From contig OZ025248.1 in the NCBI GenBank assembly GCA_964019135.1, positions 11,105,574 to 11,169,573 of the forward strand: a stretch of DNA of 64,000 bases, read 5' to 3'. The DNA is from Arenicola marina. Its lineage: Eukaryota > Annelida > Polychaeta > Arenicolidae. The position numbers and the translations under genes are program-made. A model generated the notes under the pieces. The model saw nothing but the letters and a program-made list of their open reading frames with translations. It had not been told where the DNA came from and made no database searches. The first letter of the stretch is position 1. Each line of letters opens with the position of its first letter. This document shows positions 8,554 through 62,000 of the stretch, in pieces.

Positions 8554-8691
8554 AACTGTAACATTGACGACCCGCCGTGCCCCTCCATTTACCTGGAGCG
8601 GCTGGGGTTCGAGATGCACAAGCGTTACCGGGAGACCAACCTTCAGCTGCTGCTGTCCCCGGCCGTCGTCGTCGTCAGGGACTTCTACCAG
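8554..8691 (+). CDS. BLTP1: BLTP1 exon 1 of window
   Basis: 46 codons, phase 0 at both ends, donor GTAACC. Starts NCNIDDPPC and contains YLERLGFEMHKRYRET, a segment I recognise from the vertebrate protein. Its acceptor is the last copy of the 101-bp array, so the exon start is part of the repeated unit. Confidence 0.9.
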
Positions 8692-11600
8692 GTAACCAAG
8701 GACGCCGTCTATGGCAGCTTCGTACGCTAGTCTACAGCCTCCTGTCAACTTGCTTGATTAATATGCCCCGTAACATCTGCAAGCCACCTCAGGTCTAGTC
8801 ACCACGTGGTCGTATGCAGGTCGTGTGTGCCGATGAAAAATAATGTACCATTTCCACCTCCACTAAGCCACTTTGCATGACTTTTATGAGAAATAGTTAC
8901 AACTGAACTTTTTGTAATGTAGTAATGTGGTTAGTAAGTGTAAATGGTAGTTCAAAAATAATGACCTTGTCAAGTTCCCACGACAGGGAAACTGTGCCAC
9001 CTTATTATATTACTCCTAATGTACAATCTTCCTTATGCCAGTATTATGTAGTTTTCCTAATACCTGACAGCTACTCACCTCCTCCCATTGATCCCACAGA
9101 GCATGTTTCGACCTCGCAATGTGTTACTTGTGTGAAAACCAACTGTTTATGCAATGACCTTTATTTCACCCAGGGGCGTGACCCCGCCCACGAGCACCTA
9201 GAGGCGGGTCACATGACTCTGTCGGGACTCCAGGTGCGAGGCAACGCCTTCTTTTCCCACAAGGGGCGCCCCCTGGACAGCGAGACGCTGGAGTACGGCT
9301 GGCTGCTAGAGGTCACCGTGGGTGACATCACCGGTAGACTCACCGCCCCGCAGGTACGCTCAAATATGCCTTGCCACCCGTGCTCAACCAAATATGTCCC
9401 ACCCCCCAGGTACGCTCAAATATCTCCCACCCCCAGGTACGCTCAAATACCTCCCACCCTCAGGTACGCTCAAATATCTCCCACCCTCAGGTACGCTCAA
9501 ATACCTCCCACCCTCAGGTACGCTCAAATATCTCCGACCCCCAGGTACGCTCAAATATCTCCCACCCCCCAGGTACGCTCAAATATCCCCCCGTCCCTCC
9601 AGCCCCCCCCCCCCCAAGTTATGTACAAATACCCCCCCCCCCCGCCCTCTTATGTACACTCAAACATCCCCTATCCGTCAAGGAACGCTCAACTATGTAC
9701 GTCGATAATATCCTCTTGCAGCCCCAAGTGACAAGAAGACGGCGTTGTCTGTACTGCGTTGTCTATGCGGAGTTGTCTGTGCGGCGTTGTCTGTGCGGCG
9801 TTGTCTCTACGGCGTTGGCTGTGCGGCGTTGTCTCTACGGCGTTGTCTCTACGGCGTTGTCTCTACGGCGTTGTCTCTACGGCGTTGGCTGTGCGGCGTT
9901 GTCTGTACAGCGTTGTCTGTACGGCGTTGTCTGTGCGGCGTTGTCTGTACGGTGTTGTCTGTACTGCGTTGTCTATGCGGCGTTGTCTGTGCGGCGTTGT
10001 CTGTGCGGCGTTGTCTCTACGGCGTTGGCTGTGCGGCGTTGTCTCTACGGCGTTGTCTCTACGGCGTTGTCTCTACGGCGTTGTCTCTACGGCTTTGTCT
10101 CTACGGCGTTGTCTGTGCGTCCTAACGGAAGCGTCCTGACCTGTCACACGCGTGTATGTGTTTTTGTTTCCAGCTACAAGGGATCATCGAGTTCTTGCAG
10201 ACGTTCCTCCACCTGGTGCAAGACTCTGAGAACGGCCTGCAGCGTGCCGTGGGTTACCACCTGTGCCAACACGGCCTGCCCCAGGCCGAGTGTCGCGCCG
10301 AGGACCGGGGCACGGACCCCTGCCCCACCGAGGGCGACCTCAAGTACCGCATGACCCGCGCCACGCTCGACTGTGTCGATCTCTATCTCGTCGAGGCCGG
10401 CACCGCTCTCAACATACAGGTCAGCTGGGGGTGGAGGGGTTGGTGCAGGGGGTGGGGGTGATGGGGGTTGGGGTGATAGGGATTGGGGTTTTGGTAGGTG
10501 GGAGTTGGGAGCGGGCGTGGGGTATGGTGTATCTGGAAGAGAGTTGCGTATATAGTTTCATCGGGTTTAGGGAGAATTACCATAAATACCAAGTTGTGTC
10601 ACATTTGTCAACCTTGGTCACAATGATACATGTGACTAACCACAATCAGAATATCGAACGCATCCCTCTCCTATCCTGGTAGTCCTTCGATTGTCACTAC
10701 TATTACGTGTTTCTTTATCCCATATCAACTGGAATCGTAATTATGATGTCTGCCCTTGACCTTGATCTTGAACTTGACCTTGATCGCAGGTGTATCCCGT
10801 CCGCCTGTCGACGTGTAACCTACACGGCAAGAACAACAAGGCAGGCATCACGGCGCTCATCCCGCACGTCAAGGTCAAACAGTTCGTGCTGTCGGGCCCG
10901 GTCACGGCGCCGCTCCACCCGTCGGACATTTGGCTGGAGGCCGGCGGCATCTCCCTGGGGCCCATCAACGTGGACGCGGCCATGGCCCTGCCCGGCCCCG
11001 AGTTCCACGCCCTGCAGGACCGCTTCCTGAAGCGGCACGACGCCCCGACGCGGCGGCTGTGGTTCCTCTGGCCGCCAGATATCAAGACCATGAGCCCCCG
11101 CGTCATCGGCAAGTGCGGCTGCCTCGGCGGGTGTCGCTTCTTCGGGAATAACCGCAACGGCTACCGCGTCTTCCACCCGAACGACCGCGACTTTCTGGAC
11201 AGCGTCAACACGGCCATGTTCCACATATGCGACGACGGAGTCAACTACGGCTTCGGGCAGAGTATCCTGCAGACGGGTCAGCTGATGTTCCAGGCACGCG
11301 CCACCTTGCTGCCGATGACGCCGAGCCGCGACCAGATCCGGGTCCTGGCCAAGCAGCAGGAGCAGTACCAGCTGCTGAACGACAGCATGGTCAGCGCGGT
11401 GAGCGCGTCTACCCATGAGACGAGCACCACGCTGGTGGGCGAGTCTCCCATGGCGCCGCGCTATGGGAGTCCGGGGGTCCAACGCGGGCGAGGCGGCGGC
11501 GGCGGCAGCCCGCGAACGGGCCACGCCACGGTGACTGGTAGCGACGTCGGGTGGACGAAGCAGACCCTGACACTGCCGCTGGTGGATATCCATAGAGACG

Positions 11601-14600: not shown

Positions 14601-17600
14601 TGAATAAATCCGCCCATCAGTCGAGCCTCGCTTAACATTTAACGTTTACTTATATTGCATTTTAAACTTTTCTCAGAAAAAGGCTAAACGTTTAATAGAT
14701 TTACCCTATTTAAATGTCCATTTATTAACGGAAATAGTTTGATGGCGGTGGCTTTCTGGCCATAGTGTAGTTTTGTAGCACATAACGAAATACAATAGAT
14801 TAATATGGATCATGGTTTATGTTATGAATAATAAAACGACAAACAGATTTATGGAGGAAACAAAACCACTAGCTAATTATTACTTAGATACCCCCTTAGC
14901 TTAACCGTAATATTGCCAGGTGCATAACTCGCTCTTGGGGAAGTTGAACAAATGTGTAGAAAGTGCCACAACGAGCGAGGGAAGGTAACCTGGTGAGTAG
15001 CGTACTAACTGTGGCAAATAGCGTATGTTGTATGTTCATTCCTGTGGTGGGAACCCAGCTTCTCATTAGGTGATTGTTCTTCTTCCTGTGATAATTGAGC
15101 TTGAGAGTGGCTCCGTGATAACGTGACGTTGATCACGTGACATTATCACATGACCTGATCACATGACCCTGACAAACGTGTTTGACGTCGTATTATATAT
15201 ATCACCCCTCTTGTAAATTGTTCCCCGGATGTATTAACTGAAATTAATCAATTTGATTCCATTTGTAATGATTCAACATTGCCATATTTTTCTTTATTTT
15301 GATTGATTTATTTATTCACTTAATATTTTGCTTTGCGTTTTTTTCATTTACCGGTGCAATTACTTGCGCTTTTTAGTGCTGAGATAACATCATAATTTCA
15401 CCTTTTTGTCTCATATTTCGCTAAATTATATTTTGTAAGAAACAATTGTTACATTTAACCGGTGATGGTGGAAATCGCATTTCTGTTTGTATTATTATCA
15501 TGGCTTATTATCATGAAACGAAGGCGATTTCTGAACGGAAACATTCTATTTTGTTATTGTATATATGAATTAAATGAGATATTTAACAGAGATATTTTTA
15601 TTTGCATGTAGACTCATACGTATTTTGTGTGAATATTCCTTGTGAAGAACATCACAGTTCTTACCTTTCTCTACCGGTACATATACAATTGTATATATGT
15701 GTATATATACAGTGCAATAACCGAATCGACGCCTGTTATGGATCCGTGCATGTGGGAAACAGGGCCTTATGTAACATACCCCTCGTTATTGTCTCTCGAC
15801 AGAATTTGACAACATGTTTACTTATGAAGACCACGTGTCTAAGACCACGGCGGTGGTGAACCTCAAGGGGTCCGTGGACGTCATGGTGTCGCCCCTCATG
15901 CTGGAGGCACTGCAGCGGTAAGTCAACCTTGTGGTGTGACGGCATGGTGTGACGTCATGGTGTGACGTCCTGGTGTGACGTCATGGTGTCGCCCCTCATA
16001 CTGGAGGCACTGCAGCGGTAAGTCAACCTTGTGGTGTGACGTCATGGTGTGACGTCATGGTGTGACGTCATGGTGTCGCGCCTCATACTGGAGGCACTTC
16101 AGCGGTAAGTAAACCTTGTGGTGTGACGTCATGGTGTCGCGCCTCATGCTAGAGGCACTGCAGCGTTAAGTCTTCTGGTCTGTGGTCTGGTCTTTTGGCA
16201 ACGTCCTGTTGTCCACGTGCTCCAAGTAGTGCAATGCCTCTACAAAAACGTGAAACATAAACATATGTAAGTACAACTTACTGAGAGGTATCATCGTGTG
16301 TTCAGATCTTAGATACTTTTAAGTCTTCATGCAAGCACTCTTATTAATACAGGCCTCTATGTATGAATAGAGCGTGCAGTTACACTTCGCAATAACATTT
16401 GATATTTGGATATTTTAATTGTATCCGGAGAGCGACTGTGAACATTCTTCGTTCTAGCGATTTCAGCGTTTAATTTTATTCACTATAATTGTAAATTAAT
16501 GAAACGTAACGTACCGTATATCAGAAGAGGACTGTACATTAACATTTATAGCGAGCCCAAGCGAGCTCTTAAGGTAACATGTATGCATATTCAAAGTCCA
16601 TTTCAAGCATTGGCTTAGGACTTTCATTTCGCGTAACAGCGCCCATGAGACACTTTCGGATTCGGAGTAAATATCAGCTGTACATAAATAGATTCAAGCA
16701 AAGAGAGGTCAAAGTATATTATGTCATGTCTTTAATAATTAAATCAGCTGCCCCACAAAATTAACGAATAAATTATTCAATGTTAACAATGGATGTATAT
16801 TTAAAAATAAAGTTAATTTATAAGCGATGCGCTAAATTTCTGTTGCCAAGCTCCAAGCAGAGCATATTGAGTAGCTGTGACGTCAAAATATTATAAACAT
16901 GACGTCACAATGGGAGTTCCTAAGCAACCGAATTATATGTCACAAGCACATGCACGGTATACTTCATCCCGCCAAAGATATGCGTTACGGCAAGCCGAAG
17001 TGAAATAAATTTTGAATATTAATCTAGATGTATCCCCTCGGAATATCTGAAATAATAAATGTACGCTCGCATTTTTTAGGTAGCACCTATCTATAATATA
17101 ATATATGTATTATTAACTTTTATCAGCAAATGATTAAAGTGCGATAATATTAATTTAGGCACTAGTTTAATTCAATTAATGATATGATAAATTTTTGTTG
17201 CTAATTGACACCAGGAGAAGATTGTGCAATGAATTAATAAAAACATTTTTGCAATTCGGGCAGTCATTTTATTTATTTAATGATTTAATAAATTAATAAA
17301 TGTGTCGTTGAAATCCTTGCAGATACGTTGAGGCCGTGACGCCCGCGCTGGTGAAGCGTCACCCGTCCGCTATCGTGGACGCCATCCACTTCCAGTGCGC
17401 CTCTACCGTCAAGGACCAGAACAAACTCAAGCAGCAGCAGTCAGAGAACGAGTCCGCCGAGCGCAAGGATATCAGGTCAAAGGTCAAGCCCTCGGGCTCG
17501 GCTGGTAGGTCTGGTGACGCGGCCGGCGAGGGGGGTTCTGGGGCCAAGGAAGGGGCGGGGAAGACCAGCAAGACATCCAGGCTGCAGGTCATGTTCAGTT

Positions 17601-20600
17601 TGTCGAAGGTGAGTCCGTGTTTTAGTGTTTATTATTTTTATTAAGTTTAAATGTCTTTGTTTGTGCCTGTTGTGTTTGTGATTAGGTTAATACATATGCC
17701 TTAAAAGCATTTCTAAATTAATTTATTTTATACAAATCCATCATGCAATTTAACTTTTCGGCCGTCCATACATTAGTTAAGCAGCCATGGGGTCCATGGC
17801 TTAATGTATCCTTCCTTTCTTTGCTCCTAAGATCAACGTCGATGACGATTTAATTTAATCCTTCCCTTCTCCACAACTATATCAGTATCCAAGACGTCCA
17901 TGGTTCATAGTAATCTCTCCCTTCTTTACTGACTATATCTACCTCCAAATAATATTAAATATTATATGTATATATATCTTATTAAAACTCGTCTCTGTTC
18001 CACCACCTAAGTGTATGTTTTTCAAAATACTATGCACCATGCAAACTGTTTGTATGATTATATGTTGTGTCATTTGGGCCTTAAGGCCTTCAAGACCAAA
18101 TAAACTTCAACCACCAACAATCCATGATAATTTCAATTCCCCTTCCCCTCCCGTCCACCTCTCATGACGATTCACCCATCCTTGCTTTCCTCATTTGATC
18201 AACGTCGATAACTATTTCAATTAAATGTGCATGCCGCTTGCCGCCGCCAGATCAACGTCTGCCTGCTGCAAGCCTCGTTGGTGGAGGAGATGATTCCGTT
18301 CGCGGCGCTGGACCGCGTCCAGGAGCTGACGTGTGTGTCCGTCCTCACGGCGTGTCTGGACAACATCTCCTGCCAGCTGCTCGTCAACACGGCCAGCCTC
18401 AAGTCCATCGAGGTCATCGGGTCGGACTGCAGCCCAGACTCGGTGGCCAAGGCGGCGGGGGCAGGGGCCTCCGCTTCCGCCTCCACCGAGGCTGTGCGCA
18501 AGCAGCTGTCGGTCGCCGCCTCCGAGGGGGGCGAGCGCCTGCGGCTCGTGGAGACCCAGCAGGATGACCAGGTGGGCAGCCTAGCCATCGGCAGGATCCA
18601 CCTGCAGCTGAGGAGGATGAAGAGGAAGTGCAATTACTCTGAAAGCGTCCACCTCACGGCCATTCCGGAGTACCGCTCCAAGGTGTTGTTCACCTTCCAG
18701 CCCAAGATGCACTTGAGCGGCGGGGAGACGCCCGAGGGTCAAGGTCAAGGTCAGGGACAGCAGGGCGGCGGCGGTCGCGGTGGGGGCGGGGGTGGGAGCG
18801 GCTCGGGGCGGGTGGCGGCGGGGTGGGAGGAAACCCCGGTCGGGGAGTACACCACCAGCGGCACGCTGACCCCGGCCAGCGCGAACCAGGTGGCCAGGGA
18901 CGTGACCAAGATGGCGGCCAGCGAGGGAATCCACGTGCCGAGGAAGGACGCGGTTCCTGCCGGAGTATCCACCGGGTCGCAAACACACGCGCACACGCAT
19001 GCGCATGCGCCGCACCAGACCCTGCAAAAGACGCTGAGCGAGCAGACGGCCGAGGAGCTGTCTGGGTTCATCATGTTCGAGTGCGGCCTGGAGGGTATCT
19101 CCCTGCGGGCCGCCCGCCGCACGGGTTACAGCGGCAGGGCCTCGCCCCAGGAGGAGGTCATCCGCCAGCGCTGGCACAAGTCCTTCACCGAGAAGATGGC
19201 GGAGAGCGCCACCAGCCCCACCGCCAGAGGCGCCACCGCCACCACCACCACCGCGGCCGCCGCCACCGCCGGCAGCACCGGCGACCATTGCCCGCACGAC
19301 GAGGGTCACGTGAACGAGACCGTCACGCAGTCGGAAGAGGACTCCCTTCGCAGCTCCTCGCCCAGTCACGATGGCAACGCGGCCGACGACGAGGCGTCGC
19401 TGCACTCGCACGCCTCGCTGGAGGCCGACGGCTCCCCCGGGCGGGCGGCGCGGCCGGCCAGCCCGGGTGAGGAGGGGGAGGAGGAGGACGGGGAGGCAGG
19501 GGGAGGGGAGGAAGATGAGGAGGAGGATGGGGAGGCAAGAGAGGGACGCCAGGACCAGCAGCTCAAGGGAGACGCTTCCAGCTGCTCGCTCGAGTTCAGT
19601 GGAGTCTGGTTCAACTTCGCCGCCCCGCCACCCTCCCCCAAGAAAAAGAAACTCGAGTACACCAGGTAACGTCAACGCATTCTGTGGACCACTATCACAC
19701 TTATTTGATAAATACTGTATTTACCATGATTAAATACTGCATGTAACATGATTAAGTACTGCATTTAACACGATTAAGTACTGCATTTAACATGATTAAG
19801 TACTGCATTTAACGTCATTAAGTACTGTATTTAACATCATTAAGTACTGTATTTAACACCATTAAGTACTGTATTTAACATTATTAAGTACTGTATCTTA
19901 GACCTAGAAAATACATATATTAACATTACTTACATAGGTAGGACACATGTTGACCTTTCTCCCTGGCCTGTCTTCCCCAGACTGGACTGGAACCTGCTGA
20001 GCACGGTGACGCCCGCCATCAATGCCTGGATGAACCCCTGTCACCGCGCCATGATCGCCTCCCAGACCCTGGTCAGCAAGCTCAACGAGCGTATCTCTGT
20101 CGTCATGGCCTGCATCATGACCGAGGCGCTGGAGGTACCCAGCATCCACCTGCTGCCCAAGGTAGGCCGGTCAGTGTGGAGGGGGGGGGGTGCTGTGGGA
20201 GTACCCAGCATCCACCTGCTGCCCAAGGTAGGCTGGTCAGTGTGGAGGGGAGGGGGGGGGCTGTGGGAGTACCCAGCATCCACCTGCTGCCCAAGGTAGG
20301 CTGGTCAGTGTGGAGTGGGGGGGTGGTGGCTATGGGAGTACCCAGCATCCACCTGCTGCCCAAGGTAGGCTGGTCAGTGTGGAGTGGGGGGGGGTGGTGG
20401 CTATGGGAGTACCCAGCATCCACCTGCTGCCCAAGGTAGGCTGGTCAGTGTGGAGTGGGGGGGTGGTGGCTATGGGAGTACCCAGCATCCACCTGCTGCC
20501 CAAGGTAGGCCGGTTAGTGTGGAGGGGGGGGGGCTGTGGGAGTACCCAGCATCCACCTGCTGCCCAAGGTAGGCTGGTCAGTGTGGAGCGGGGGGGTCTG

Positions 20601-23600
20601 TGGGAGTACCCAGCATCCACCTGCTGCCCAAGGTAGGCCGGTTAGTGTGGAGGGGGGGGCTATGGGAGTACCCAGCATCCACCTGCTGCCCAAGGTAGGC
20701 TGGTCAGTGTGGAGTGGGGGGGTGGTGGCTATGGGAGTACCCAGCATCCACCTGCTGCCCAAGGTAGGCCGGTTAGTGTGGAGGGGGGGGGGGCTGTGGG
20801 AGTACCCAGCACCCACCTGCTGCCCAAGGTAGGCTGGTCAGTGTGGAGTGGGGGGTGGTGGCTATGGGAGTACCCAGCATCCACCTGCAGCCCAAGGTAG
20901 GCTGGTCAGTGTGGAGGGGGGGGGGGGCTGTGGGAGTACCCAGCATCCACCTGCTGCCCAAGGTAGGCTGGTCAGTGTGGAGTGGGGGGGTGGGGGCTGT
21001 GGGAGTACCCAGCATCCACCTGCTGCCCAAGGTAGGCCGGTCAGTGTGGAGGGTGGGGGGGGCAGTACCCGGCATCCACCTGCTGCCCAAGGTAGGCCGG
21101 TTAGTGTGGAGGGGGGGGGGGCTGTGGGAGTACCCAGCACCCACCTGCTGCCCAAGGTAGGCCGGTCAGTGTGGAGGGGGGGGGGGGGGCTGTGGGAGTA
21201 CCCAGCATCCACCTGCTGCCCAAGGTAGGCTGGTCAGTGTGGAGTGGGGGGGCGGCTGTGGGAGTACCCAGCATCCACCTGCTGCCCAAGGTAGGCTGGT
21301 CAGTGTGGAGTGGGGGGGTGGTGGCTATGGGAGTACCCAGCATCCACCTGCTGCCCAAGGTAGGCCGGTCAGTGTGGAGGGGGGGGGGGCTGTGGGAGTA
21401 CCCAGCATCCACCTGCTGCCCAAGGTAGGCTGGTCAGTGTGGAGGGGAGGGGGGGGGGCTGTGGGAGTACCCAGCATCCACCTGCTGCCCAAGGTAGGCT
21501 GGTCAGTGTGGAAGGGGGGGGGCAGTACCCAGCATCCACCTGCTGCCCAAGGTAGGCTGGTCAGTGTGGAGGGGAGGGGGGGGGCTGTGGGGGTACCCAG
21601 CATCCACCTGCTGCCCAAGGTAGGCTGGTCAGTGTGGAGGGGAGGGGGGGGGGCTGTGGGAGTACCCAGCATCCACCTGCTGCCCAAGGTAGGCTGGTCA
21701 GTGTGTGGAGGGGGGGGGGGGGTGGGCTGTGGGAGTACCCAGCATCCACCTGCTGCCCAACGTAGGCTGGTCTGTGTGGAGAGGGGGGGGGGGTGGCCGT
21801 GGGAGTACCCAGCATCCACCTGCTGCCCAAGGTAGGCCGGTCAGTGTGGAGGGGGGGGTGGGCTGTGGGAGTACCCAGCATCCACCTGCTGCCCAAGGTA
21901 GGCCGGTCAGTGTGGAGGGGGGGGGGGCAGTACCCAGCATCCACCTGCTGCCCAAGGTAGACGGTTACACCCCGGAGACATAGCTCCTCTCTACCGCCAT
22001 TGCTTCCGATATAACCTTCCTAGGCCAGGGGATCAAGGTTAACCGTCCATCGGTTCCTGCCCGCCATTCGAAATGAATGTCTTGTTGTCAACGTAAATCG
22101 TGCTATTGTTTATTTGAAAGTTCTAGTTTCGATTAGCTTATCCGATATTTTAGTTAGTACCTACAATACCATAGTCACAACCAGCGACACACCGCTTGTT
22201 AGTCGTTTAGTCATGTTATTGACTATTTTCTGGCCATTATTTGATTACGTTGTGTGATTATATCGGTCCCATTGACAGAGTAAGATTGACAAGATCACGA
22301 GCCTGTCGAAGACGATCCAGGAGGACCCGTCCTGCCAGCTGCTCACCGTGCTGCGCCGCTACATCAAGACGGTCGGCGTGTCCCACATCGAGGCCAACAT
22401 CTGCGTGGAGACCATCCCCCAGCTGCTGACGATCCAGAAGGGCCTCCTGGTCCTCACCCGGCAGTGGAAGACCGTCCTGTACCACCCGCGCGTCGCCGAC
22501 GGCGGCTTCAAGACCAAGAAAAAGGTCCTCTACAACGTAACTTTCGCCATCCCGCCGGACGAAAGCCTTGACGTCATCGATGAGGAGAGCGTCACCATGG
22601 GGATGACGAACGCCGGGGCGGCGGGGGCGGGGGAGCTGGCCGACGAGGAGGAGACGATGGGCGGCGATAACTTTGAGATCGTCGACGAGAAGACGTCGTT
22701 GTTGAAGGCGGAGGGGGGCTCGGTGTTGCGGTCCCTGTCGGCGCTCAGCCTGACGGGGGACGCGGCCTATGTGGTGGCCCCGGAGGAGCAGCCCGCGCCC
22801 AGCGTCGGCGACCCGCGGCAGGCGCTGCTGGCCGATGACGTCACCGGCCAGGACGCGCTCAAGAAAGGTACGCGGAAGGTTTTATCTTTGCATGAATATA
22901 ATTTCAAACTTATGTTTCTCAATTGTGAGTTTCTCAAGAGTTTTACCCAGGTAAATTGGTCATGAAAAAAAATGGTGTCCTTCCACCGTCTCCCCACCGA
23001 GCTGGTGCAGTAATTTATGTCTAGAGATTATGAAGATCCAACACAGATGGAAATGACGACATCGGAGACTTGATGTGTGAATACAGAAGGCGCGCGTGTA
23101 CTTAGAGAGAGATAACTTTCTCAAGGCGGTTCTCTATAACCGTCTTTGACCCGACCAAAACATATGTGTTATGATGAAGGTAAAGCAAGTATGACCCGTG
23201 CTTTTACTAATAAAAGTACCAGTATCATAAAGGAAAATGTCCTGTCGTGCACGTGCACGACATGTCTGTAAACGTCTCTGTATGACCAAATAATGGCTGT
23301 GTATTGAAAACTGAAAAATACTCAAAGGGCGATACATATTATGACTCACCTTCTCTATCTTCGTACATCGTGTATATCCGCTTCCACGCCTAACACTATT
23401 AGTGGTGCTTGCAGGTAAGCCCAAGGCGCGGGGTCTCTCCAGCGTACCGCTCGGCAAGACCGGGGGCGACGGCCCGACGGCCTCCCTGGGCAGGGGAGAG
23501 GGCGGCGGCGGCGGCGGAGGGGTCCCGCCCCACACCCCGACCAACGCCCCTCCCTTGGCCGCCACCTTCAGCAACCTGTTCGCCTCGCAGTCCAAGATCC

Positions 23601-47600: not shown

Positions 47601-50600
47601 CACCGGTTTCGTATCCTCTCTGGTCAGTACAGCATGTTTAGTTTCGTATAAGTCAAACTTACCCTACATTTGCGTAGTTTTTACGTGGTAAGCCTGCATA
47701 GCGAGTCGATATGGGGTCACACGCAGCCATATTTATCCACCCCTTTTTTCCCGATATGAGATTGAAGTGAATCGCGATCTGGATTCTTACCTTATATGTG
47801 ACCATTGTGTATTATATCCGTGTAGAAAGAAAGTCTGATGCAGATTTTCTCACGGAACCCTCGTGTTTAACAGCGTTTCTTACCAGCATCGCTGTTTTAG
47901 TTGTAGATTTTTTCAACTATGTAAACCATCTCTGGCTCTACGTCACTCCCTATTGCAGCCTCCTGGATATCAGAGATCCGACACCACCGCCACTGGCAGA
48001 AGGTTCTAGAACACGTCTCCGGATGCAAGCTCTCGGCGCTCAAGTTCACTCTCCCGAAGCAGGGGTCGCTGGTAGGGGGCGCCGTCAGCCTCAAGGGACG
48101 CAACCTGTCGCTGGCCTGTTTCCATGGCATCAACTTCCGGTCCAAGTCGTGGGGCCTGTTCACGATGGACGAGCCCTTCATCACCTTCAACACGGAGGCG
48201 CAGGAGTTTGTGGATGACGGTGAGTGGCTGGACTAGTGTGACGTCACGCCGTCCGGTCATGGTATATCTTGAGGGGAGAACCTGGTGGTTAAATTGTTAT
48301 GATAAAACGCTTATCCTGAGCCAGTCGACTGGGCTGGAGTGGCCGGTTAGAACCCCGCTTTGTATCAATATTGCTGTGTATGTAAATATATCAGTGGGGG
48401 ATAATTAACCTCCACAAGATATATCTCCCTAAATATATGTGATCCTTGTGAGCCACAAGTTCTCCTGGCCTGATTATTAACACGACGAATCTTTGCGAAA
48501 AAGCACATATGATTTCTGGTAAATATACATGTTTTTTAACATATGAATGAGATATAGAATGTATAACGTTGTCAAAACTCACGCGCAGAGTAAAAAATAT
48601 CATTTAAATGCATAGCGGTATCGAGGCCATCAGTCATATGATGACGTCATCCTGACGTTGTGCTTTTAAAGAATTATTAATACAATAATATTCCGCAATA
48701 AAGACAGTAGAGCCAAATACGCCACACAAGTACTGACACGTATTTCTCTCGGTGTCCGCCAGAGGGCGTCAAATGCACGCACGTGGAGCAGTCGCTGCTG
48801 TTCAAGCTGGGTCACGACCACCGGGAACGGCGCGAGCTGGACCGCAAGGACATGGCCATGGTGTGCAAGCTGTCCCGGGGCCACTACATGCCGCCCCCCT
48901 TCACCAGCGTCCAGGACTGGTTCCAGTACGCCTTCACCACCTCGGAGATCAAAGGTGAGGTCCTTAGCCCCCCCCCCCCCTCCCTCCCTCTCGCCCCGAC
49001 AGCGATCATTGCTGTCTTAATGGTTAAGGGGGAATCCTGACCAAGTGTACTTTTATATTGGGTATTTATTTCATGGTACTTTGTGTTGCTGTGGGTTTTT
49101 TTTTAACATCTCTTATATATAATTTAGATAATATGATCAAGAACTAGCTTTATTCAGATGGCTGCGCATTCGTTATCATTGTCTTTCGCTAATTCGGCGT
49201 CATTTGGCGTAATTCGGGTTCGCAGAGCTGGACAGCTTCCCGCACATGTCTCGCCAGGGCAACGAGAGTCCGCCCGAGAGGCGCTCTGCGGCGAGACGTA
49301 CACAGGAGTACAGCCACGAGACGGAGGTCATCTTCGTGTTGCCCTGTCTCCTGCTCGACCTCAAGTCGCGGCACCAGCAGGGCGAATACGAACCAGCGGA
49401 TGACGGTGAGTGCTAGGGCGTGGGGGGGGGGGGGGGTCAGAATCATGACATCAAAATTAAACAACAGTTTACCAAAACTGGTATTTATTCGATAATTTTT
49501 GACCCAGTTACATGTAAGTGGGAATTGTTTTGGTTAACCTTAAGTTTAAAATTCAATGTTATTCGCATATCATTAGGTAAATAAAAAGTCCAGAAATCCC
49601 AAGAATGTGATTGTCTCAGTGTGTTATATTGCTTTTCCCTGCCGATGATGACGTCACGCCATGTATCGCATGTGTCTCCCTTCTGATGATGACGTCACAC
49701 CACGTATCGCATGCCTCCCCCTCCTGATGATGACATCACGTCACGTATTGCATGCTACCACCTGCTGCTGATGACGTCACGCCACGTATTGCACTCTCTC
49801 CCTGCTGATGATGACGTCACATTACGTGTTTTATTGGCCACAGATCCCAAGCCGGTGGTTCACTGCAGTTTCGTCACCGACTTCTACCACCACATCAACG
49901 TGGCGATGGACGCGGAGGCCATTCTGTTCATCCACGACCTCATCACCAGCTACGTCAAGGAGAAGGACAAGGGTAAGGGGGGTGGGGGGGGGGGGACTCT
50001 GGAGGGAAGGGCAGAGAGGCCATTCTGTTCATCCACGACCTCATCACCAGCTACGTCAAGGAGAAGGACAAGGGTAAGGGGGGGGGCTCTGGGGGGAGGG
50101 CAGAGAGGCCATTCTGTTCATCCACGACCTCATCACCAGCTACGTCAAGGAGAAGGACAGGGGTAAGGGGGGTAGGGGGGGGGCTCTTGGGCAAGGGCAG
50201 AGAGGTCATTCTGTTCATCCACGACCTCATCACCAGCTACGTCAAGGAGAAGGACAAGGGTAAGGGGGGGGGCTCTGGGGGGAGGGCAGAGAGGCCATTC
50301 TGTTCATCCACGACCTCATCACCAGCTACGTCAATGAGAAGGACAAGGGTAGCGGGGGAGGGCAGAAAGGCCATGACAGAGGGGGTTGGGTAGGTAAGAG
50401 TAGAAAAGCGTAGGGGGAGTGCGGGAAACCAGGTAGATTAGAATGAAAAGGGAGGCGAGGTAAGAGTAAAATGGGTGGTACGAGGTACAAGGAAAAGACA
50501 CTGTTAAAGTAATGTAACATGGGGTTTACAGTTGCTCCTGACATAAACTGTAAAGTAGGTTCTGTGTGTTTTAGGCCTGAACAGACAGCAGAAATCTCCC

Positions 50601-51144: not shown

Positions 51145-51490
51145 GTCACGTGACTGCAGGGGAGGAGACAGGGACTTCTGAGGATTCATGTCGCCTGACT
51201 AGAAATGCCGAGAACTTCTTAGTCACGTGACTGAAGGGAGTGAGGACTTCTGAAGACTCGTGTCACGTGATTAGAAGGCTCGAGGACTTCTGAGTGACTT
51301 TAAATGACTAGAGGGGCGAAGACCTAATGACTCGCTTCTCCTGCTAACGATGACAAGGACAAGTTTCAAGCGACAAAGCTGGTAAATTATGTTCGGACCT
51401 ATCTGAGACAATGCGTGGTGACGACTTAATTGTAGAAGATTAAAGTGATACTAGAGTGACATTATGAGTCTTGGGTCATGTGACCTGACA
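51145..51490 (+). other. BLTP1 3' untranslated region, proximal
   Basis: Starts at the TGA. Contains degenerate repeats of GACTTCTGAGTCACGTGACT in the first 170 bp, similar in part to the last codons (GAGGACTTCTGA), so the terminal exon's end also seems to have been copied. Confidence 0.6.
51439..51444 (+). terminator. BLTP1: Candidate proximal polyadenylation signal of BLTP1
   Basis: ATTAAA about 295 bp after the stop, followed by GT-rich sequence (GTGATACTAGAGTGAC). Other candidates: AATAAA at 54275 and 54754. Only transcript ends can decide. Confidence 0.35.
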
Positions 51491-51494
51491 TGGA

Positions 51495-51865
51495 GTCTTG
51501 ACATGACTTAGACTTGAATTCTTGATGAATTCAGACTTGAGTTCTTGATGACTTTAGACTTGAATTCTTGATGAATTCAGACTTGAATTCTTGATGAATT
51601 CATACTTGAATTCTTGATGAATTCAGACTAGAATTATGGATGAATTCAGGCTTGAATTCTTAATGAATTCAGACTTGAATTCTTGATGAATTCAGAATTG
51701 AATTCTTGATGAATGCACCAGACGTGAATTCTGGATGACTGCACCAGACGTGAATTCTGGATGAATGCACCAGACGTGAATTCTGGATGAATGCACCAGA
51801 CGTGAATTCTGGATGAATGCACCAGACGTGAATTATGGATGAATGCACCAGACGTGAATTATGGA
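51495..51865. repeat. 23- and 26-bp GAATTC-containing minisatellite
   Basis: First about nine copies built on CAGACTTGAATTCTTGATGA, then about six built on CACCAGACGTGAATTCTGGA. Lies downstream of BLTP1. Confidence 0.92.
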
Positions 51866-52514: not shown

Positions 52515-52935
52515 GTTGTCAGGCGCTATTTGTAACGTTCTACAAGTAACGTTCTACAAGTTGTCAGGCGCCATTAGTAACGTTCTAGAGGTTGTCAGAC
52601 GCCATTAGTAACGTTCTACAAGTTGTCAGGCGCCATTAGTAACGTTCTAGAGGTTGTCAGGCGCCATTAGTAACGTACTACAAGTTGTCAGGCGCCATTA
52701 GTAACGTTCTAGAGGTTGTCAGGCGCCATTAGTAACGTTCTACAAGTTGTCAGGCGCCATTAGTAACGTACTACAAGTTGTCAGGCGCCATTAGTAACGT
52801 TCTAGAGGTTGTCATGCGCCATTAGCAACGTTCTACATATTGTCAGGCGCCATTAGTAACGTTATAGAGGTTGCCATGCGCCATTAGTAACGTTCTACAA
52901 GTTGTCAGGCACCATTAGTAACGTTCTGCAAGCTG
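52515..52935. repeat. 31-bp minisatellite downstream of BLTP1
   Basis: About 13 copies built on AACGTTCTACAAGTTGTCAG followed by GCGCCATTAGT. Two subtypes (CTACAAG and CTAGAGG) alternate, suggesting a dimer unit. Confidence 0.93.
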
Positions 52936-54860: not shown

Positions 54861-54863
54861 TTC

Positions 54864-54869
54864 TTTATT
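54864..54869 (-). terminator. Candidate polyadenylation signal of the minus-strand gene
   Basis: AATAAA on the minus strand, about 1 kb after that gene's stop codon at 55891. It faces the plus-strand AATAAA at 54754 across about 105 bp. Confidence 0.35.
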
Positions 54870-55554
54870 CCAAACTTCACTTATTATGACGTAAACAGAT
54901 TTTATAATAAGTCAGCCACTTAATAGGTGTAAAAATCACACAGGCTCGTCAATACAAACTTTAAAAATAAGTATCTTAGTTCATTCAGTTTGGCACGATT
55001 TGTTCAGCATTTTTGTACAATAAACATTTGCAAAGGCAAATATAGGTTCCAGTCGAAAATATCGCAATCCACATTGTTAAGCTGGACGGACGTTACGTAT
55101 ATCACAGATATGTTGACAGTTGAACAAGACGTAACTTCCAGTTACTGCCCGTTCCGTCTCGGCACGATAGGTTTCAATACTCCTGGTTACAAGTCCTCTA
55201 CACCGGTAAGATATCAAGTAAGCCTAATACTTGTATAGGTAACCAATAGGTTAGTTAATACCAATAGGTTAATTTGGGTTAACATTCTCTGATTATCACA
55301 AAATAATGACCACGTAATATTCAATCATCATAATTTGTTTGTGTCAAAGATATTAGGCGCTTACATAACTCTCCGATAAGCCATATTAAATATTAACTAA
55401 AGGCGTTACTCGGTCTAGATCTCTCCATACTTATGGCTTTTTATCCAAATATATCTATCTTAATTTACATATTCAATATCAGAGCGGAACGAATAATATT
55501 ACGAGAAAACCAGCAGAACTAAATCTGTTAATTAAATGTTTCAGCTTAGTTATA

Positions 55555-55815
55555 TGTTCCATATCAACTGTTTTATAATTATGTTCACAAATTGTTTTAT
55601 AATTAAGTTCACAAATTGTTTTATAATTAAGTTCACAAATTCTTTTATAATTAAGTTCACAAATTGTTTGATAATTAAGTTCACAAATTGTTTGACAATT
55701 ATCTTCACAAATTGTTTGATAATTGTCTTCACAAATTGTTTGATAATTATCTTCACAAATTGTTTGATAATTGTCTTCACAAATTGTTTGATAATTATCT
55801 TCACAAATTGTTTGA
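55555..55815. repeat. 24-bp minisatellite in the 3' flank of the minus-strand gene
   Basis: About 11 exact-length copies of ACAAATTGTTTGATAATTAT and TTCT-type ends. As 24 is a multiple of 3, frames stay open on both strands; these are not genes. The array begins 75 bp beyond the minus-strand stop and is probably in its 3' UTR. Confidence 0.93.
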
Positions 55816-55890
55816 TAAATATCCGCCATATAGATACGAATAACATAAGCGTCCCAACATGTTCTCGGCCCAATCCCGGGTCCTATGTAA

Positions 55891-56096
55891 TCAACAGCCA
55901 GAAGCAGTGACCGCCCAGGTTCTGGGACGGCCCTGGGCGAACACGCCCTCTCCGCCCCCAGCTCGCTTCTCCTTGTACTCCATCAGCGCCACAAGGCTCA
56001 GCGGCTCCCATTGGCTGACGTTCTCAGAACGCTGACCAATCAGGTGGCCGGACTCTCCCCGCTTGGTGTCGGTGCTGCGCTGATCGATCGGCGCGT
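55891..56096 (-). CDS. Uncharacterised gene, terminal exon f
   Basis: 206 bp with TGA, acceptor GCTTTCAG. Reads DAPIDQRSTDTKRGESGHL, QWEPLSLVALMEYKEKRAG and ends TWAVTASGC. Confidence 0.82.
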
Positions 56097-59000
56097 CTGA
56101 AAGCACACAGAACGCATGAGACTCCAGGTTAGTAGCCGCTACACATCAACATGAAGGGACAAGGCGGCAAAATGTCGCTCATAATTTAGTGCTTTTTAAG
56201 AAATTTGTCAGTATTTATTATTTATTATTACTCCATTTACATTTTATCAGAGTTGTCCTGCGTATACAAACATATATTTCATTCATTTACAAATAAACTG
56301 ACTGACACACAACCGACTAGATTCATGCATGGAAAGCAATACGAAAAGTAATGTTCAGTGAAGTCATGCTGAAGGGATATACGAAATAAGACTCGTCATT
56401 GAATAAATGTCACAACCTCACAATGCGCCCCACACTTCCCGTTGAACACACCTGAACGATGACTGGACAACACAGATCTGGCATTCAGCGCCTCCCGTGA
56501 CGTCACCACATTCTCCCGCCCTATCTTCTCTGACGTCATCTGGGGCTCCATCTCTCTGTAGCAGGACTGCTGGCCTTCCTGGCACGCGTTCCGGATCCTC
56601 TGCGAGAACCGCCCGGGTACTGTGGCCGCCGACTCCGTGAGGAAGTGGATCCTGGGTTGTCCCTGCTCCGGACGCGCCTTCCGGATATCCCGCCGCTGAG
56701 CAAATATGTCACTCCAGTCGCCTCTCTCCGGCTTGATACCTGGATCCGAGACTCCGGATCTGTGGGTCAAGGTCCCGGAGTCGGATGGGCAATCCAGGCG
56801 TTCGCTGGTGACACTGCGCCGTGGTATGTCCTGACGAAGTAATAATATTCAACATTCAAACATCTATGGTTCATTTCATGGGTTTAATTGCCAGATTCGA
56901 TTTCTCCATATGGCAACAGCAGTGACTTCTCACGCACTCATACATTGCATAGGATGTGCGTCAATCGTAAGAACATTCCGTTTTGCCATCAACATTTCTT
57001 TCGGCATTTTATGCTTGTGACTATCAACAATAATATTGCGCAAAATATATCCAATCACAGCGCTGAGAAGCGATGACGTCACCATTGGCGTGTCTGAACA
57101 CTCACCGAGGCTTGGGACGCCCAGGATGGCATGTAGCGTCCGACGCTCTTGTCTCCATGGTGATTGGTGATATCCGGAGCAGGGTTGTTATGGAGCAGGA
57201 CCCCCGTCCGATCCTTGTTGATCTGGGACGAGCGGTACATGAGCTCCACCTTGTGGCGGAAGTCGTGGGCGTTGTGGACACGTGACTGATCCAGGAGGCG
57301 CTCCATATCCGGGACCTGAAGCCATCCCATGGGATTCAAGGGAAATTAAAGGATTGGTGCCTCAGGGAATCTCCGGAGACAGTGGATGATGTTGGCATAA
57401 TGGCCACAGACTACATCGCACTGTGAATCAGACAATATGTGGAGCGTAGACATACAATGGTGGCCTTCCTTTCGCTGTGTCTTCATCATTATATAAATGA
57501 CAATAATCAGAGTACAATAATCAAGAATTAACTAATGCCAATAATCATGACTAAATGACAATAATCATGAATAAATATAAAATAAATATGAATAACAATA
57601 ATCATGACTAAATGCCAATAATGATGAGTAAATGACAATAATCATGAATAAATGAACTCCTTTCATGAGATTAGCGGACAAACAAGTGTTTCCCTTCTCC
57701 GACCATTTTAACCGTCCTCTCGACGTACATCGTTTACGACAAGATGTAAATAAGTCGCGATGTGGGTTTCGCGACGCGGTTACCGAAGCACGCAGACTTA
57801 CATCTTCACTGGAGTAGAAGCCTCTCTTGATTGGTTCTTTCTTCTCAGTCAGGTTCTGACGTACGAAGGCCCCGAATGCCGCCTGCAAAACACAATAATC
57901 ACAGGGTCAAGGCCGTTGCTACCAAAACAACGTCACAATGACGCCGTCGCCAAGGGGTATCAACGCTTATAAAGATGACTCAGAGGAGATAATGCGTGGG
58001 CGGAGGAGAGTGATTTGACCTGGATCCGCCTTGGCTGCCATGGTAACTGGAGGACAATCAAGGTATCTGGGTGAAGGTTATGTGGTGACTTCAGGCGCTA
58101 TACGACCCATAAGTCTCTGTTTCAAGGTCACGCGATGAAGGCAGACCACAATAGGCCCTTCAGCCTACGTCTATTTCCAATGTCTTGACAGTACAATCAC
58201 ACCAACATACCTAGAAAAGCAGTCCACGACCGTCCCTACACCTACAGCCAAGGCCAATCGGTGCAGCAGCGCCTGGAGAGGGGGGTGGCAGTGCGGGGGG
58301 TCAGGATCGGGGTGGGGGGGGGGGGTCACACAGTCACCCCCACCCCCCAGCCACACACACACTGTGAGTGCCCCGACTCACACCGACTGGCCTGGCGGCC
58401 TCACCCCCCGTCCAGGGAACCTGCCAGACCAGCAATCAGCTAAATAGATTACAGGCTTTTTCCTCGCCTCATGTAGCCATGAATTATAAATGTAGGCCAG
58501 CAGGCCATGTCGAGGGGAGGGTTTCTGTCGCTCCTTTCCTCCTTTATTCCCTCAACAAGGCAGTCGTGATGTCGGCACATAACGGGTGTGGGTGTGGGTG
58601 TGGGTGTGGGTGGGGTGGTGCATAGGTCACAGTGTTAGTTGTCTGTACCTAACTAAAACTGTGACCTGGCTGACGCGAGGGCGAAATAAGACCGCAATTG
58701 TTACCGTAATATTACACACCGGAGCTCGGCTGATTAGTCGAGAAGAAAACAATTCAGGGGGGTTTTGGCATCGCATTGAAGTTAACGGGGGTTTCTCACC
58801 ATCTTGGGGCACGGGGTGAAGAACCAAGGCGAAGGCGGGATCTAAAGGATGATCTCCAATTCGGGTGCCGGACACGCAGGAATTCGAACCCTCGACTTGG
58901 GTATCTGAGTCCCAGAACACTATCGCTGCTCCCTTTTACAGGAAAAAATGGTGCCCTAACGGTTATATATAATGCGACGCCACCAGACATTCCCCTCTTC

Positions 59001-62000
59001 CGCCTAACCCACAAGCCAGTCCACCCAGGGGCCTGCAGTGACTGTTATACACCCCCCCCCCTCACCTTGAGTATCCTTCCGCCTAACCCACAAGCCAGTC
59101 CACCCAGGGACCTGCAGTGACTGTTATACACCCCCCCCCCCGCCCCCTCACCTTGAGTTCCTGGGAGAGCAGTTTGTCGTCCTCGTCCAGCAACTTGCGT
59201 TCCGAGTCGTCTCGTAGCAATCTCCACAGAGGGGCAGCGCCAATTCGACCTACAGGGGGAGCCACAAGGTATAGCATTATTAACCCGGATCACACAAGTT
59301 ATATATCATGCAGAGCAATACAATACAATAGGTAGATGCGTTGCCTAGCGTAGGGAATTCCGGTACTGCTTGAAATGCGAAGTGTTTTAGGCCACTTTTG
59401 TGACCATAAAGGCACAATAGCAATAAACCCCCCAGTTCGAGACGCAGCTCAAAGCTTGCTCGATGCAGCCAGGAATAGAGACTGTTTCCTGTTACTCCTA
59501 AAACAAACCTTGTAATAACATCTGTTTCCATGTTTTGCCACTGATACATAAATCCGAAATAAGCAAAATACGAATTACTGAAGTCGGAATGTTAGGGTAC
59601 GAACACTTAAAACGGCAATGTTGGGCAACATGATAAACGCTAACCCATGACCAGGACAATGTCTTCTACGGATCAGTCAATGAAAAGGTGTAAACTGTCG
59701 CGACGCGTAGCCAATGAGAACGCGCTATACGTCTCAACCAATGGGAATACGCGTACACTCCAAGAAGTAGCCAATCAGAATGCTTGACAGGCTTCATCGG
59801 TTAATGAGAGCGCCACATGCGGCACTGGGTACGAGCGCTCCACTCGGAGAGGTCGCCAGAGATCAGTCAGGTCTTAAGTTCCTGAGTCGGGGCTTCATGA
59901 AAGACCAGGACACAAGCCCAATTATCGCGCTAGCATTGAAGCGACATCGGCATTCCGTCGGCAGGTTGCGCTAACTACGACGGCGGCGCCCGGCTCTTTG
60001 TGCCTCCAAATGAGGCGGCCCGAGTCCCGTCTTTGTGGCCGCCCCAGCAGCTCTTACAAGGCCATTACTGCCGAAATCAGGTCTCGCCGGTCACCCTGGT
60101 CAGACCGCCATCGCTGCTACAGCTACGGCTACAGCTACAGGCGGAGGGACATCACACGTCTCAGAACCGCCGCGACCCAAACCTGTCCACCTCGATCTCT
60201 TCTGCTTTACTTCACCCGCCCAGTGGCCTCCTCTCCCTACCCCTGCCCCTACCCGTCCCGTCCCGCCACGCCCACCCTAGCAACGGCATTTCCATCACGT
60301 ACGCGGCATGCCGGGGGTCACTATAGGCTCCGGCCACCCGGGGGTCACTATAGGCTCCGGCCACCCTCCTCCCGACTGGACCTTGCCATGACGTACTGAA
60401 GGGTGCATACACCGTCCCCCACCCGCCTTAAGTTGACCTCTCGTCCCCTCACACCCGCCCCACCCGCCAGTCATCTCCTGCTTACCGCAATCACCTCATC
60501 ATTGGACACCCAACCCCACCCCCCACGACACCTTCCCCGAATCCTTGACTTTGGTGCCCCTCCCTCCCTCCCTTCCAGTGCTTGATCTGGCCAATTACTG
60601 CTGTAAGATTCCGGTCAGCACCCCCCCCACCCCACCCCCCGCAATCCTCACACAATTCCCATCGCGTCCTTGTCCTGGGCGGCCATGGAGAATCTAATAG
60701 CGGTAGAACTCCCCGACCCACCCTCCCAGCTATGTATGGAGATCCCCACGCCAGGGCGGCCGTCCAGTCACCCACCCCGATGTCCGCCAGCCCCAAACCC
60801 ACCCCACACTCACTCGCGTTACCTACACTCCTCACTGAAGCTACTTCTTTTAACCTAGTCATCCACCGCCAACCCTTCCCATAAACGCTCCACTAAACCA
60901 CCGTCACCCCTACCGTTCACTCACCACCAGCCCCTACAACACCCCCGGCCCCCTCCCTCCCCACCCCACCTACACAACCCTCCCAGTGCCAGCGCCGGCC
61001 TAAAGGGTTCCTTCCATTAGTGAGTTGTTCCGGTCTGGAGATACCGGACCGCCGCAGAGGATCAGCTCCAGAGTCCAGACTCGGGGCGAGTGTCCAGAAC
61101 AGACGCTCAGGAAGTCCTCCCTGATCATAACTTATTGAGTTACTCGGAGACACGTGAGCGCCATGGCTTATTCCACCCTACAGGAAAAAAAAACCTGGCC
61201 GCCAGACCGCCACGCACCTCCCAGAACCCTCCCAAATGACTGGTATAGTTACCAAATCCAATAACGTATATATTTTTGCCCATTACAATGACATTGCTTG
61301 TTACCGCTAATCAGCTGAATGGCAATCGTCATAAATAGATACATAAGCCGTTGATCCTAATTCGTCGCAAAGATACATCGTGACCCTTTCCACCCTCACC
61401 CCCCACACCCCCCCACCGCCGTTGCTAATGGATCATAACGGCCCTCCCCCTCCCCCTCGGTATGTACGAATCAGGAGATAATTCTCGTGATCTTGGAACA
61501 ATAATTACACTCATAGCGCCAGCTACCCTGTCCTCATCTTGATCCCTTCTGTAGCAGACCACACTGTCACCCACAGGCTGCTACAGAAGGGAGGTAGGGC
61601 CTATAACGTGGGGTAACGTCTCGCAGACTGGCGCTATCGTTATTATAGGACGCGGGGTATGGGTTGTCTGACGAGGCCCAGTCAACGAACCGACAGCAGT
61701 ATATACAGTGCACATGGCATGGACGTCAAACACGACATGGTTTAAAGAACATAAACATGATGAACCGCTAACGAGGTATGGCGGGACACAACGGTACTGT
61801 ACACTTGATAGCTCAAAGCACACTGCATGTACAAAGCGGGATACAACATGGGCACAATAGCTTAATGAATCTAACATTGAAATTGTATAATGTTACCTAC
61901 AGATTAATGTTAATACAGATTCTATCTTATCTAACATTGATACACAAAAACATACATTATCCAACAGAGAGACAGAAGCAAGTTGGTCTCATCCAACATA

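Follow-up and report, generated by a model that had tools for sequence, protein, structure and literature searches.

Results

The BLTP1 gene

The window, meaning the whole stretch of 64,000 nucleotides analysed here, carries on its plus strand a BLTP1 gene, identified through Pfam matches to BLTP1_N, BLTP1_M and BLTP1_C. Spliced profile alignment gave a raw model of 50 exons, which were merged to 42; two exon starts were corrected and the final exon was prolonged to the stop codon. The resulting homology-based model of the window part (coding exons 1–42, 8,554–51,144, plus strand) comprises 4719 codons with no internal stops, and 15 more exons lie upstream of the window. As in the dynein models used below, which are likewise derived from homology, some end exons were set by hand or dropped. 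In a tree the BLTP1 sequence groups with that of the annelid Owenia (support 0.94), and then with nemerteans (1.0); the source animal is a lophotrochozoan. A search of solved structures with one exon returned no match at E 0.001. The window part of the gene has 83 junctions in 42.6 kb.

Arrays at splice junctions

The earlier note had placed ten BLTP1 junctions inside the units of tandem arrays. All 83 model junctions were scanned with 20-mers centred on the junction (10 + 10 bases), allowing at most three mismatches and a distance of up to 2.5 kb. The scan recovered exactly those ten and none besides: eight of the 41 donors have copies (exons 2, 5, 8, 14, 21, 23, 25 and 40), as do two of the 42 acceptors (exons 1 and 36). 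All lie on the plus strand, and their units range from 27 to 101 bp. The exon 1 acceptor array (1–8,593) is built from a 101-bp unit, 40 bp of it exonic, with 85 copies within the window; with upstream DNA counted it extends over 10.2 kb and about 101 such units. At exon 36 (array 46,972–47,290; exon start 47,266) a 71-bp unit supplies five acceptor copies that are 99% alike.

Copy numbers for the donor arrays, like those for the acceptors, include the real site. The largest in the window, at exon 8 (20,135–21,960; donor after 20,161), holds 28 donors in units of about 69 bp (spacings 58–73), with 27 exonic bases apiece. The exon 14 array (27,495–28,187; donor after 27,505) has 13 donors in a 55-bp unit, some units being 60 bp, and that of exon 23 (37,435–37,806; donor after 37,454) has 13 donors in a 29-bp unit with every GT intact. 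GT is also intact throughout the eight donors of the exon 2 array (9,344–9,591; donor after 9,353; 27-bp unit). The array of exon 25 (39,338–39,793; donor after 39,382) consists of nine copies of a 49-bp unit, 45 bp of it exonic, and that of exon 5 (15,882–16,170; donor after 15,917) of four copies with 36 exon bp each, spaced 100, 87 and 61 bp apart, the final one lacking GT. Seven copies spaced 54–84 bp apart make up the exon 21 array (35,216–35,717; donor after 35,237), in which GT is lost from four of the six decoys; an eighth, weaker match at 35,774 was left out of the count. Finally, the exon 40 array (49,915–50,370; donor after 49,972) has five donors in a unit of about 89 bp with 58 exonic bases, and the motif AGGCCAT, which occupies the unit's exon end, recurs just beyond the last copy.

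An eleventh site had been proposed on the minus strand, at the donor of a putative exon b near 59,153. This donor (CTCAAG|GTGAGG) is indeed duplicated (58,997–59,158, minus strand), in two copies only, 79–86 bp apart, and the exon is unconfirmed: Pfam contains no family matching its reading frame.

The copies that lie away from the exon change in a non-coding fashion. Compared with the real exon pieces, the decoys carry 47 synonymous and 184 non-synonymous codon differences, with no excess of changes at third bases, and the decoy offsets, taken from part of the eight window donor arrays, show no common remainder modulo 3. Of the 259 decoy donors pooled from nine BLTP1 donor arrays, 250 still have GT. 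Comparison of the decoy consensus with the exon shows differences at 6 of 45 positions for exon 25, 3 of 10 for exon 2, 2 of 36 for exon 5 and 1 of 20 for exon 23; in five other arrays the two are identical.

The same arrangement occurs elsewhere in the genome. A BLTP1 exon upstream of the window has 181 donor copies across 6.2 kb, of which 178 retain GT, and a Pfam search revealed tandem part-exon matches in three dynein heavy chain genes (A, C and D). The dynein sample drew on 14 of 16 clusters read from domain matches, one of the 14 only partly. End exons judged spurious were removed in genes B, C, F, G and I, first-exon starts were placed at the nearest AG in A, K, L, M and O, and in H homology fixed the position of the last donor; exon lists were replaced or added late for B, F and J, with those of the other genes unchanged, and F was extended once an array had been noticed at its final exon. 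Of the 73 dynein donors 10 have copies, as do 4 of the 75 dynein acceptors; with BLTP1 included, the figures are 19 out of 129 for donors and 6 out of 131 for acceptors. Two dynein paralogues have an array at the same intron position. One reading frame stays open across the whole array in two dynein acceptor cases (87 and 75 bp), which may represent coding expansion.

Excess over chance

Whether arrays coincide with junctions more often than expected was assessed by collapsing each array (TRF score at least 100) to one unit, treating arrays as independent and all positions as equally likely. Among 61 arrays in 15 genes, 22 span a junction versus 9.84 expected (P = 4.9 × 10⁻⁵). The excess is confined to donors (16 versus 5.03, P = 1.1 × 10⁻⁵), a distinction absent from the earlier note and largely post hoc, as the donor/acceptor split was chosen after nearly all loci had been sampled; acceptors in the same 61 arrays show none (6 versus 4.81, P = 0.35), nor do wholly intronic arrays no further than one unit from a junction (14 versus 12.1, P = 0.31). 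Gene J, sampled after the split was chosen, contributed one donor array.

Of the 30 arrays beyond the window, 10 span a junction versus 4.4 expected (P = 0.006), and the junction excess that had been claimed for BLTP1 recurs in other genes. With genes A, C and D omitted, their tandem matches having been known beforehand, donors outside the window still number 7 versus 2.36 (P = 0.005), or 5 versus 1.99 at TRF score at least 200 (P = 0.037); omission of F as well gives 6 versus 2.26 (P = 0.017). The dynein genes alone, without A, C and D and at score at least 200, give 4 versus 1.66 (P = 0.068), and BLTP1 upstream of the window alone has one junction-spanning array among five versus 0.64 expected.

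For the window part of BLTP1, 8 of 20 raw TRF arrays span a junction versus 3.5 expected (P = 0.011); with the gene left uncollapsed and raw TRF periods, the expectation was 3.7 (P = 0.012). The count is eight rather than ten because TRF omits the divergent anchor copies in the arrays of exons 2 and 5. An uncollapsed test with extents set by hand and with basic periods gave 10 of 20 versus 1.9–2.4, and was discarded as too generous because the introns have already been lengthened by the arrays themselves. A position-level test did not single out junctions: in window BLTP1 a nearby copy exists for 27% of the intronic 20-mers and for 2.6% of the exonic ones. This test measures array length and not array birth, and seeds were used instead.

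Junction arrays thus exceed chance by a factor of about two to three. The earlier note had called chance placement implausible on the ground that junctions make up so little of the sequence, and an excess does exist, but that argument was overstated: given 83 junctions in 42.6 kb, units of 27–101 bp, and arrays that fill 56% of the intron sequence, the whole gene should contain about four spanning arrays by chance.

Properties of arrayed donors

In a comparison for which eight features were tried, the 19 arrayed donors differ from 109 others in donor score (9.7 versus 8.4 bits, P = 0.009, the score having been trained on the 56 donors of BLTP1, of which nine are arrayed), in the GC (0.60 versus 0.50, P = 0.0006) and G content (0.36 versus 0.24, P = 0.021) of the intron start, in GGG (4.3 versus 1.5, P = 0.018) and in exon-end GC (0.60 versus 0.56, P = 0.035); C, CpG and AGGT do not differ between the two sets. 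Donor strength and G-richness may be a consequence of array growth and not its cause. The exonic share of donor units ranges from 0.20 to 0.92, and a uniform distribution is not rejected (18 arrays, P = 0.36). Four of six acceptor units contain only 15–26 intron bases.

Discussion

The reading that we favour, with somewhat better than even confidence, is that donors are preferred seeds of minisatellites for mutational reasons, and that the arrays are tolerated through exon-proximal splice choice. The lophotrochozoan genome generates minisatellites in large numbers, and when a new tandem duplication falls across an exon–intron junction, the copy adjoining the exon body would stay functional. 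The remaining copies would then be intronic decoys, and the array could expand to kilobases with the protein unaffected. The anatomy of the arrays and the non-coding change of their decoys are directly visible; that the exon-proximal copy is the one used in splicing, via exon definition, is what we infer from them. Within the 61 arrays and 15 genes, 5′ splice sites seed arrays at about three times expectation, a partly post hoc result whose cause is most likely mutational: strong donors with G-rich intron starts would favour breakage or slippage, and short direct repeats flanking the junction, of which one array provides an example, would set the first duplication. Acceptors probably either lack the seeding property or lose their duplications to purging, as some acceptor duplications would separate the last AG from the branch point; the latter route is weakened by the four acceptor units with so few intron bases. 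One of the two causes suggested earlier, slippage where breaks are localised to the junction, fits both the donor-only excess and the scattered unit ends. The other, purifying selection holding one end of the array, is weakened in that it predicts acceptors equally, although selective removal of acceptor duplications could mask this.

It is worth considering how far the same observations could arise otherwise. Duplications might arise evenly along genes and persist where they touch exons, since array-wide deletions would there also strike the exon or the conserved exon copy would re-seed the array. We consider this unlikely. At TRF score at least 200, the 18 junction arrays do have a higher median match than the 30 others (93.5% versus 91%, P = 0.11) and more copies (10.4 versus 8.2, P = 0.30), neither difference being significant. 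However, survivorship predicts an excess at acceptors, where six arrays stand against 4.8 expected, and the decoy consensuses of exons 25 and 2 are unlike their exons, so these arrays were not re-seeded from them. Less probable again is chance alone, in a minisatellite-laden genome with short introns and a gene chosen for its many arrays. Minisatellites make up about 47% of the sequence at ten arbitrarily chosen 10-kb places, the seed test itself would yield about 9.8 junction arrays by chance where 22 were observed, and the window part alone departs from expectation at P = 0.011; yet the excess is present outside the window too, and over all data it sits at donors.

Two further explanations seem to us very improbable. 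The decoys might be useful, raising U1 recruitment or adjusting splicing timing, with the arrays maintained by selection. GT is lost from 9 of 259 decoys versus 17.2 expected from the divergence of the exon parts, but 180 of the 259 belong to a single array and copies within arrays share descent and are not independent. Moreover, the exon 21 array has dispensed with most of its decoy GTs, and only 4 of 18 junction periods (arrays with TRF score at least 200) are divisible by three, so that use of a decoy would usually shift the frame. If anything a shade less probable is that long reads were mis-joined at junctions during assembly; kilobase arrays are difficult to assemble, but the units differ in a patterned way, their spacings vary, the contig is chromosome-sized (77 Mb), and there is no reason why assembly errors should favour donors.

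The closest known parallel to these junction-seeded arrays is provided by the ‘mirage’ minisatellites of amphioxus, described in Adh3, the globins BflGb6 and BflGb9 and TnC, with related imperfect duplications in PGBD5 (PMC3087553, PMC3902484). The likeness that had been proposed holds, within the portions of these papers drawn on here: in both systems the unit spans an exon–intron boundary, at a donor or an acceptor, many units retain splice signals, and sizes overlap (27–101 bp here; 10–72 bp in Adh3 and 150–160 bp in the globins). Edge copies of the mirages are excluded from homogenisation; in the present arrays the decoy consensus departs from the exon in four cases and agrees with it in five. 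Normal mRNA in spite of the multiplied splice sites, length differences among haplotypes and somatic instability are further traits of the mirages as described in amphioxus. Here, in contrast, the host is a lophotrochozoan and the phenomenon is more extensive, reaching 19 of 129 donors, 6 of 131 acceptors and up to 181 copies; an excess at donors only is not mentioned in those portions of the amphioxus accounts. Overall, the earlier interpretation stands as to junctions within arrays, the mirage likeness and the excess, and gives way where it relied too strongly on the implausibility of chance.

Human segmental-duplication genes likewise contain variable internal tandem repeats of minisatellite size, with units averaging 30 bp; half lie in coding exons and some at exon–intron boundaries, the latter reportedly giving rise to new introns and to alternative splicing (PMC2812944, in the part consulted). 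Unlike those repeats, the copies here run into introns and donors are over-represented, and the decoys look unread. The Rogers model of intron gain through AGGT tandem duplication (cited in PMC3087553 and PMC2812944) shares with our arrays a duplication that carries splice motifs along, and two units, the upstream 34-bp unit and that of exon 21, contain both acceptor-like and donor sequence; here, however, existing introns are lengthened. Among annelids, earthworm metallothionein genes also have minisatellites within introns, namely in intron 1, although copies of splice junctions are not described in the part of that report available to us (PMC12783039). The amphioxus and, in another form, the human cases suggest that boundary-spanning repeats may recur wherever minisatellites are active.

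A broader generalisation is possible, which we offer tentatively and at rather less than even confidence: that genome-wide 5′ splice sites breed minisatellites, that introns of this lineage grow by copying their own boundary again and again, that about one in seven donors is arrayed with decoys, and that the spliceosome, faced with dozens to hundreds of identical sites, discriminates position and not sequence. The cell must choose one true splice site among up to about 180 near-identical copies. To our knowledge, choice among identical splice sites has been studied mainly by means of artificial constructs. Natural arrays beside real exons, with as many as 181 donors or about 101 acceptors that are nearly identical, make the rule that the site nearest the exon wins directly testable. 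If true, a bias of minisatellite birth toward donors would connect DNA instability with transcription or splicing signals, and would provide a simple route to the lengthening of introns.

Results

BLTP1 and its array-rich introns

The plus-strand gene of the window is BLTP1 (KIAA1109, tweek): its exons match the Pfam families BLTP1_N, BLTP1_M and BLTP1_C, and a search with a single exon retrieved full-length animal homologues. A spliced alignment between the window and a profile of 18 homologues gave 50 raw exons, some of which were merged across introns inside open, low-complexity exons; with two corrected exon starts and a final exon extended to the stop codon, the model comprised 42 exons and 4719 codons with zero internal stops, and the exon numbering of the earlier note agrees with it. 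The gene starts upstream of the window, with 15 further exons in the adjoining DNA of the same genome. Its best protein matches are spiralians, not amphioxus, and in a tree of 26 sequences (3894 columns) it groups with the annelid Owenia (support 0.94) and next with nemerteans (1.0).

Within the window the 42 exons occupy 42.6 kb with a median intron of 556 bp; over the whole gene, 56% of intron sequence consists of tandem arrays, which make up more than half of 14 of the 56 introns. Repeats also lie at the end of the gene, where a (CA)13 run (50907-50933) ends as the exon 42 acceptor and the stop codon is inside a 72-bp, 2.2-copy repeat (51133-51295) that extends into the 3′ untranslated region. 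Such abundance is not confined to this gene: in ten arbitrary 10-kb places at round coordinates of the assembly (762 contigs, 867 Mb), 47% of the sequence is minisatellite (TRF score at least 100, period at least 10), and three of the ten (L011, L017 and L019) are array over their whole length. Such a share seems extraordinary for an animal genome. The 68-bp array across all 10 kb of L017 (1-10000, minus strand) has a unit resembling an exon end and donor (STAEAVRAREAWEAIHK, CACAAG/GTAAGC), holds 89 exact copies of CACAAGGTAAGC and is probably another donor array.

Splice junctions inside arrays

When further copies were sought of the 20 bases centred on each of the 41 donors and 42 acceptors in the window, they were found at eight donors (exons 2, 5, 8, 14, 21, 23, 25 and 40) and two acceptors (exons 1 and 36), exactly the ten BLTP1 junctions that the earlier note had placed in arrays; the same scan found zero further copies for the other 73. 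According to the gene model, each donor array begins with the real site, adjoining the exon body, each acceptor array ends with the real site, and the remaining copies are intronic decoys. The eleventh site, on the minus strand, does carry a duplication, but it is a weaker case, with two copies only and no Pfam matches to its frame; a minus-strand stretch at 57082-57345 has a weak TSGA13 match (E 0.0086, below the cut-off) and is possibly an exon of the minus-strand neighbour.

Some of these arrays are very long. The exon 1 acceptor array extends upstream of the window and reaches 10.2 kb in all, or about 101 units. At the end of upstream exon 8, a 34-bp unit recurs across 6.2 kb and provides 181 donor copies, of which 178 retain GT. 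A 48-bp array of 80 copies in the upstream DNA (L002 6998-10000 through L001 839) starts on the final exonic base, directly ahead of a donor (G/GTGGGTTTAATG), and, as a borderline case, was excluded from the spanning count. The exon 15 donor (28835) starts GTCAGTGCCAGG, and these 12 bases also occur in the exon 14 donor array.

An excess at 5′ splice sites

Because junctions are dense in BLTP1 and arrays abundant, some overlap is expected, and the fair question is where arrays arose. Each TRF array was therefore collapsed to one unit, and that length was placed randomly anywhere not wholly exonic, with spanning defined as an overlap of 5 or more bases to both sides of a junction. In the window, 8 of 20 BLTP1 arrays are junction-spanning where 3.5 would be expected (P 0.011), a count that omits exons 2 and 5, where TRF falls short of the anchor copy at the real exon. 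For the whole gene the figures are 9 of 25 against 4.2 (P 0.012), or 11 spanning with those two anchors added (P 0.0007). Upstream of the window alone, one of five arrays spans a junction (0.64 expected), and three lie near one (0.95 expected). The earlier argument that chance placement is implausible was thus overstated in strength, although an excess over chance survives.

A search of the same genome for AAA_6, a domain of dynein heavy chains, gave 94 matches, with tandem part-exon matches in rows in three genes (A, C and D). We sampled 15 pieces from 14 of the 16 gene clusters read off this search, using a dynein heavy chain 1 protein profile to model exons and dropping some end exons or setting them by hand. 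Junction copies occur at 10 of 73 dynein donors and 4 of 75 acceptors and, with BLTP1 included, at 19 of 129 donors versus 6 of 131 acceptors (odds ratio 3.6, P 0.006), a donor-acceptor split that is largely post hoc, having first been made with all loci except L041-L043 in hand; dynein gene J, added afterwards, carries a donor array. In the pooled seed test, 22 of 61 arrays span a junction against 9.8 expected (P 4.9e-5). Donors account for 16 against 5.0 (P 1.1e-5), and there is no significant excess among these 61 arrays for acceptors (6 against 4.8, P 0.35) or in the pooled set for wholly intronic arrays within one unit of a junction (14 against 12.1, P 0.31). It is therefore the 5′ splice site, rather than proximity to exons in general, that carries the excess.

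This roughly threefold excess survives strict testing, and demanding 8 or 10 bases on each side makes the result stronger. It recurs in further genes of this genome, where its support is weaker though still nominal. Excluding the window and the three genes already known to have tandem matches when they were sampled leaves 7 donor-spanning arrays against 2.4 expected (P 0.005), 5 against 2.0 at a TRF score of at least 200 (P 0.037), and 6 against 2.3 (P 0.017) when gene F, extended after an array was seen at its last exon, is also dropped. Dynein alone without A, C and D gives 4 against 1.7 at a score of at least 200 (P 0.068).

Two dynein paralogues (L030 and L036) share an arrayed donor at one intron position (GGTGTTACAG/GTAAGG); the units measure 95 and 78 bp. 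Dynein acceptor arrays in L029 and L033 (periods 87 and 75 bp) each keep one frame open throughout, and may represent in-frame coding expansion.

Discussion

It is worth considering why donors should be favoured. With eight features tried and a score trained on BLTP1 donors, nine of these arrayed, the 19 arrayed donors are stronger than the 109 others (9.7 vs 8.4 bits, P 0.009), and the sequence after them contains more GC (P 0.0006), G (P 0.021) and GGG (P 0.018), with no enrichment of C in the same comparison. Breakage or slippage might be favoured by strong donors with G-rich, GC-rich downstream sequence; these features are consistent with that mechanism, cause and effect not being separated. 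Alternatively, both exon ends may be more prone to seeding, with acceptor duplications purged because they would separate the last AG from its branch point, yet four of the six acceptor units contain just 15-26 intron bases. At exon 40, the direct repeat AGGCCAT (7 bases) at the exon end of the unit and again just beyond the last copy appears to have been left by a conventional duplication event between short repeats; it is the only clear flanking repeat among the few arrays checked by eye. The exonic share of donor units ranges from 0.20 to 0.92 and a uniform distribution is not rejected (18 arrays, P 0.36); seeds are placed randomly relative to the junction.

Once formed, the copies appear to change as unread DNA does. 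Across nine BLTP1 donor arrays, comparing the exon-derived part of decoys with the real exon gives 47 synonymous and 184 non-synonymous codon differences; by codon position, there are 115 changes at the first, 53 at the second and 73 at the third. GT is lost in 9 of 259 decoy donors, most being intact, versus 17 expected from exon-part divergence, but we place little weight on this because one array supplies 180 of them. At exon 25, 6 of 45 bases of the decoy consensus do not match the exon, and this array therefore evolves independently; five of the nine arrays have no such difference. As only 4 of 18 junction periods are divisible by three, use of a decoy would mostly shift the frame. Splicing would instead take the exon-proximal copy, as exon definition would predict, for donors and acceptors alike.

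Searches of an open-licence library turned up no published lophotrochozoan example of such arrays. Human genes in segmental duplications are reported to have tandem repeats at exon-intron boundaries that are able to create novel introns (PMC2812944). The earlier note rightly drew a parallel with the "mirage" minisatellites of amphioxus (PMC3087553, PMC3902484), in which tandem repeats lie over exon-intron boundaries in Adh3, globin and troponin C, with a looser form in PGBD5, and those of Adh3 and globin reportedly leave regular splicing undisturbed. The arrays of Arenicola marina have the defining anatomy of mirages in common with amphioxus and differ in lineage, extent and donor excess.
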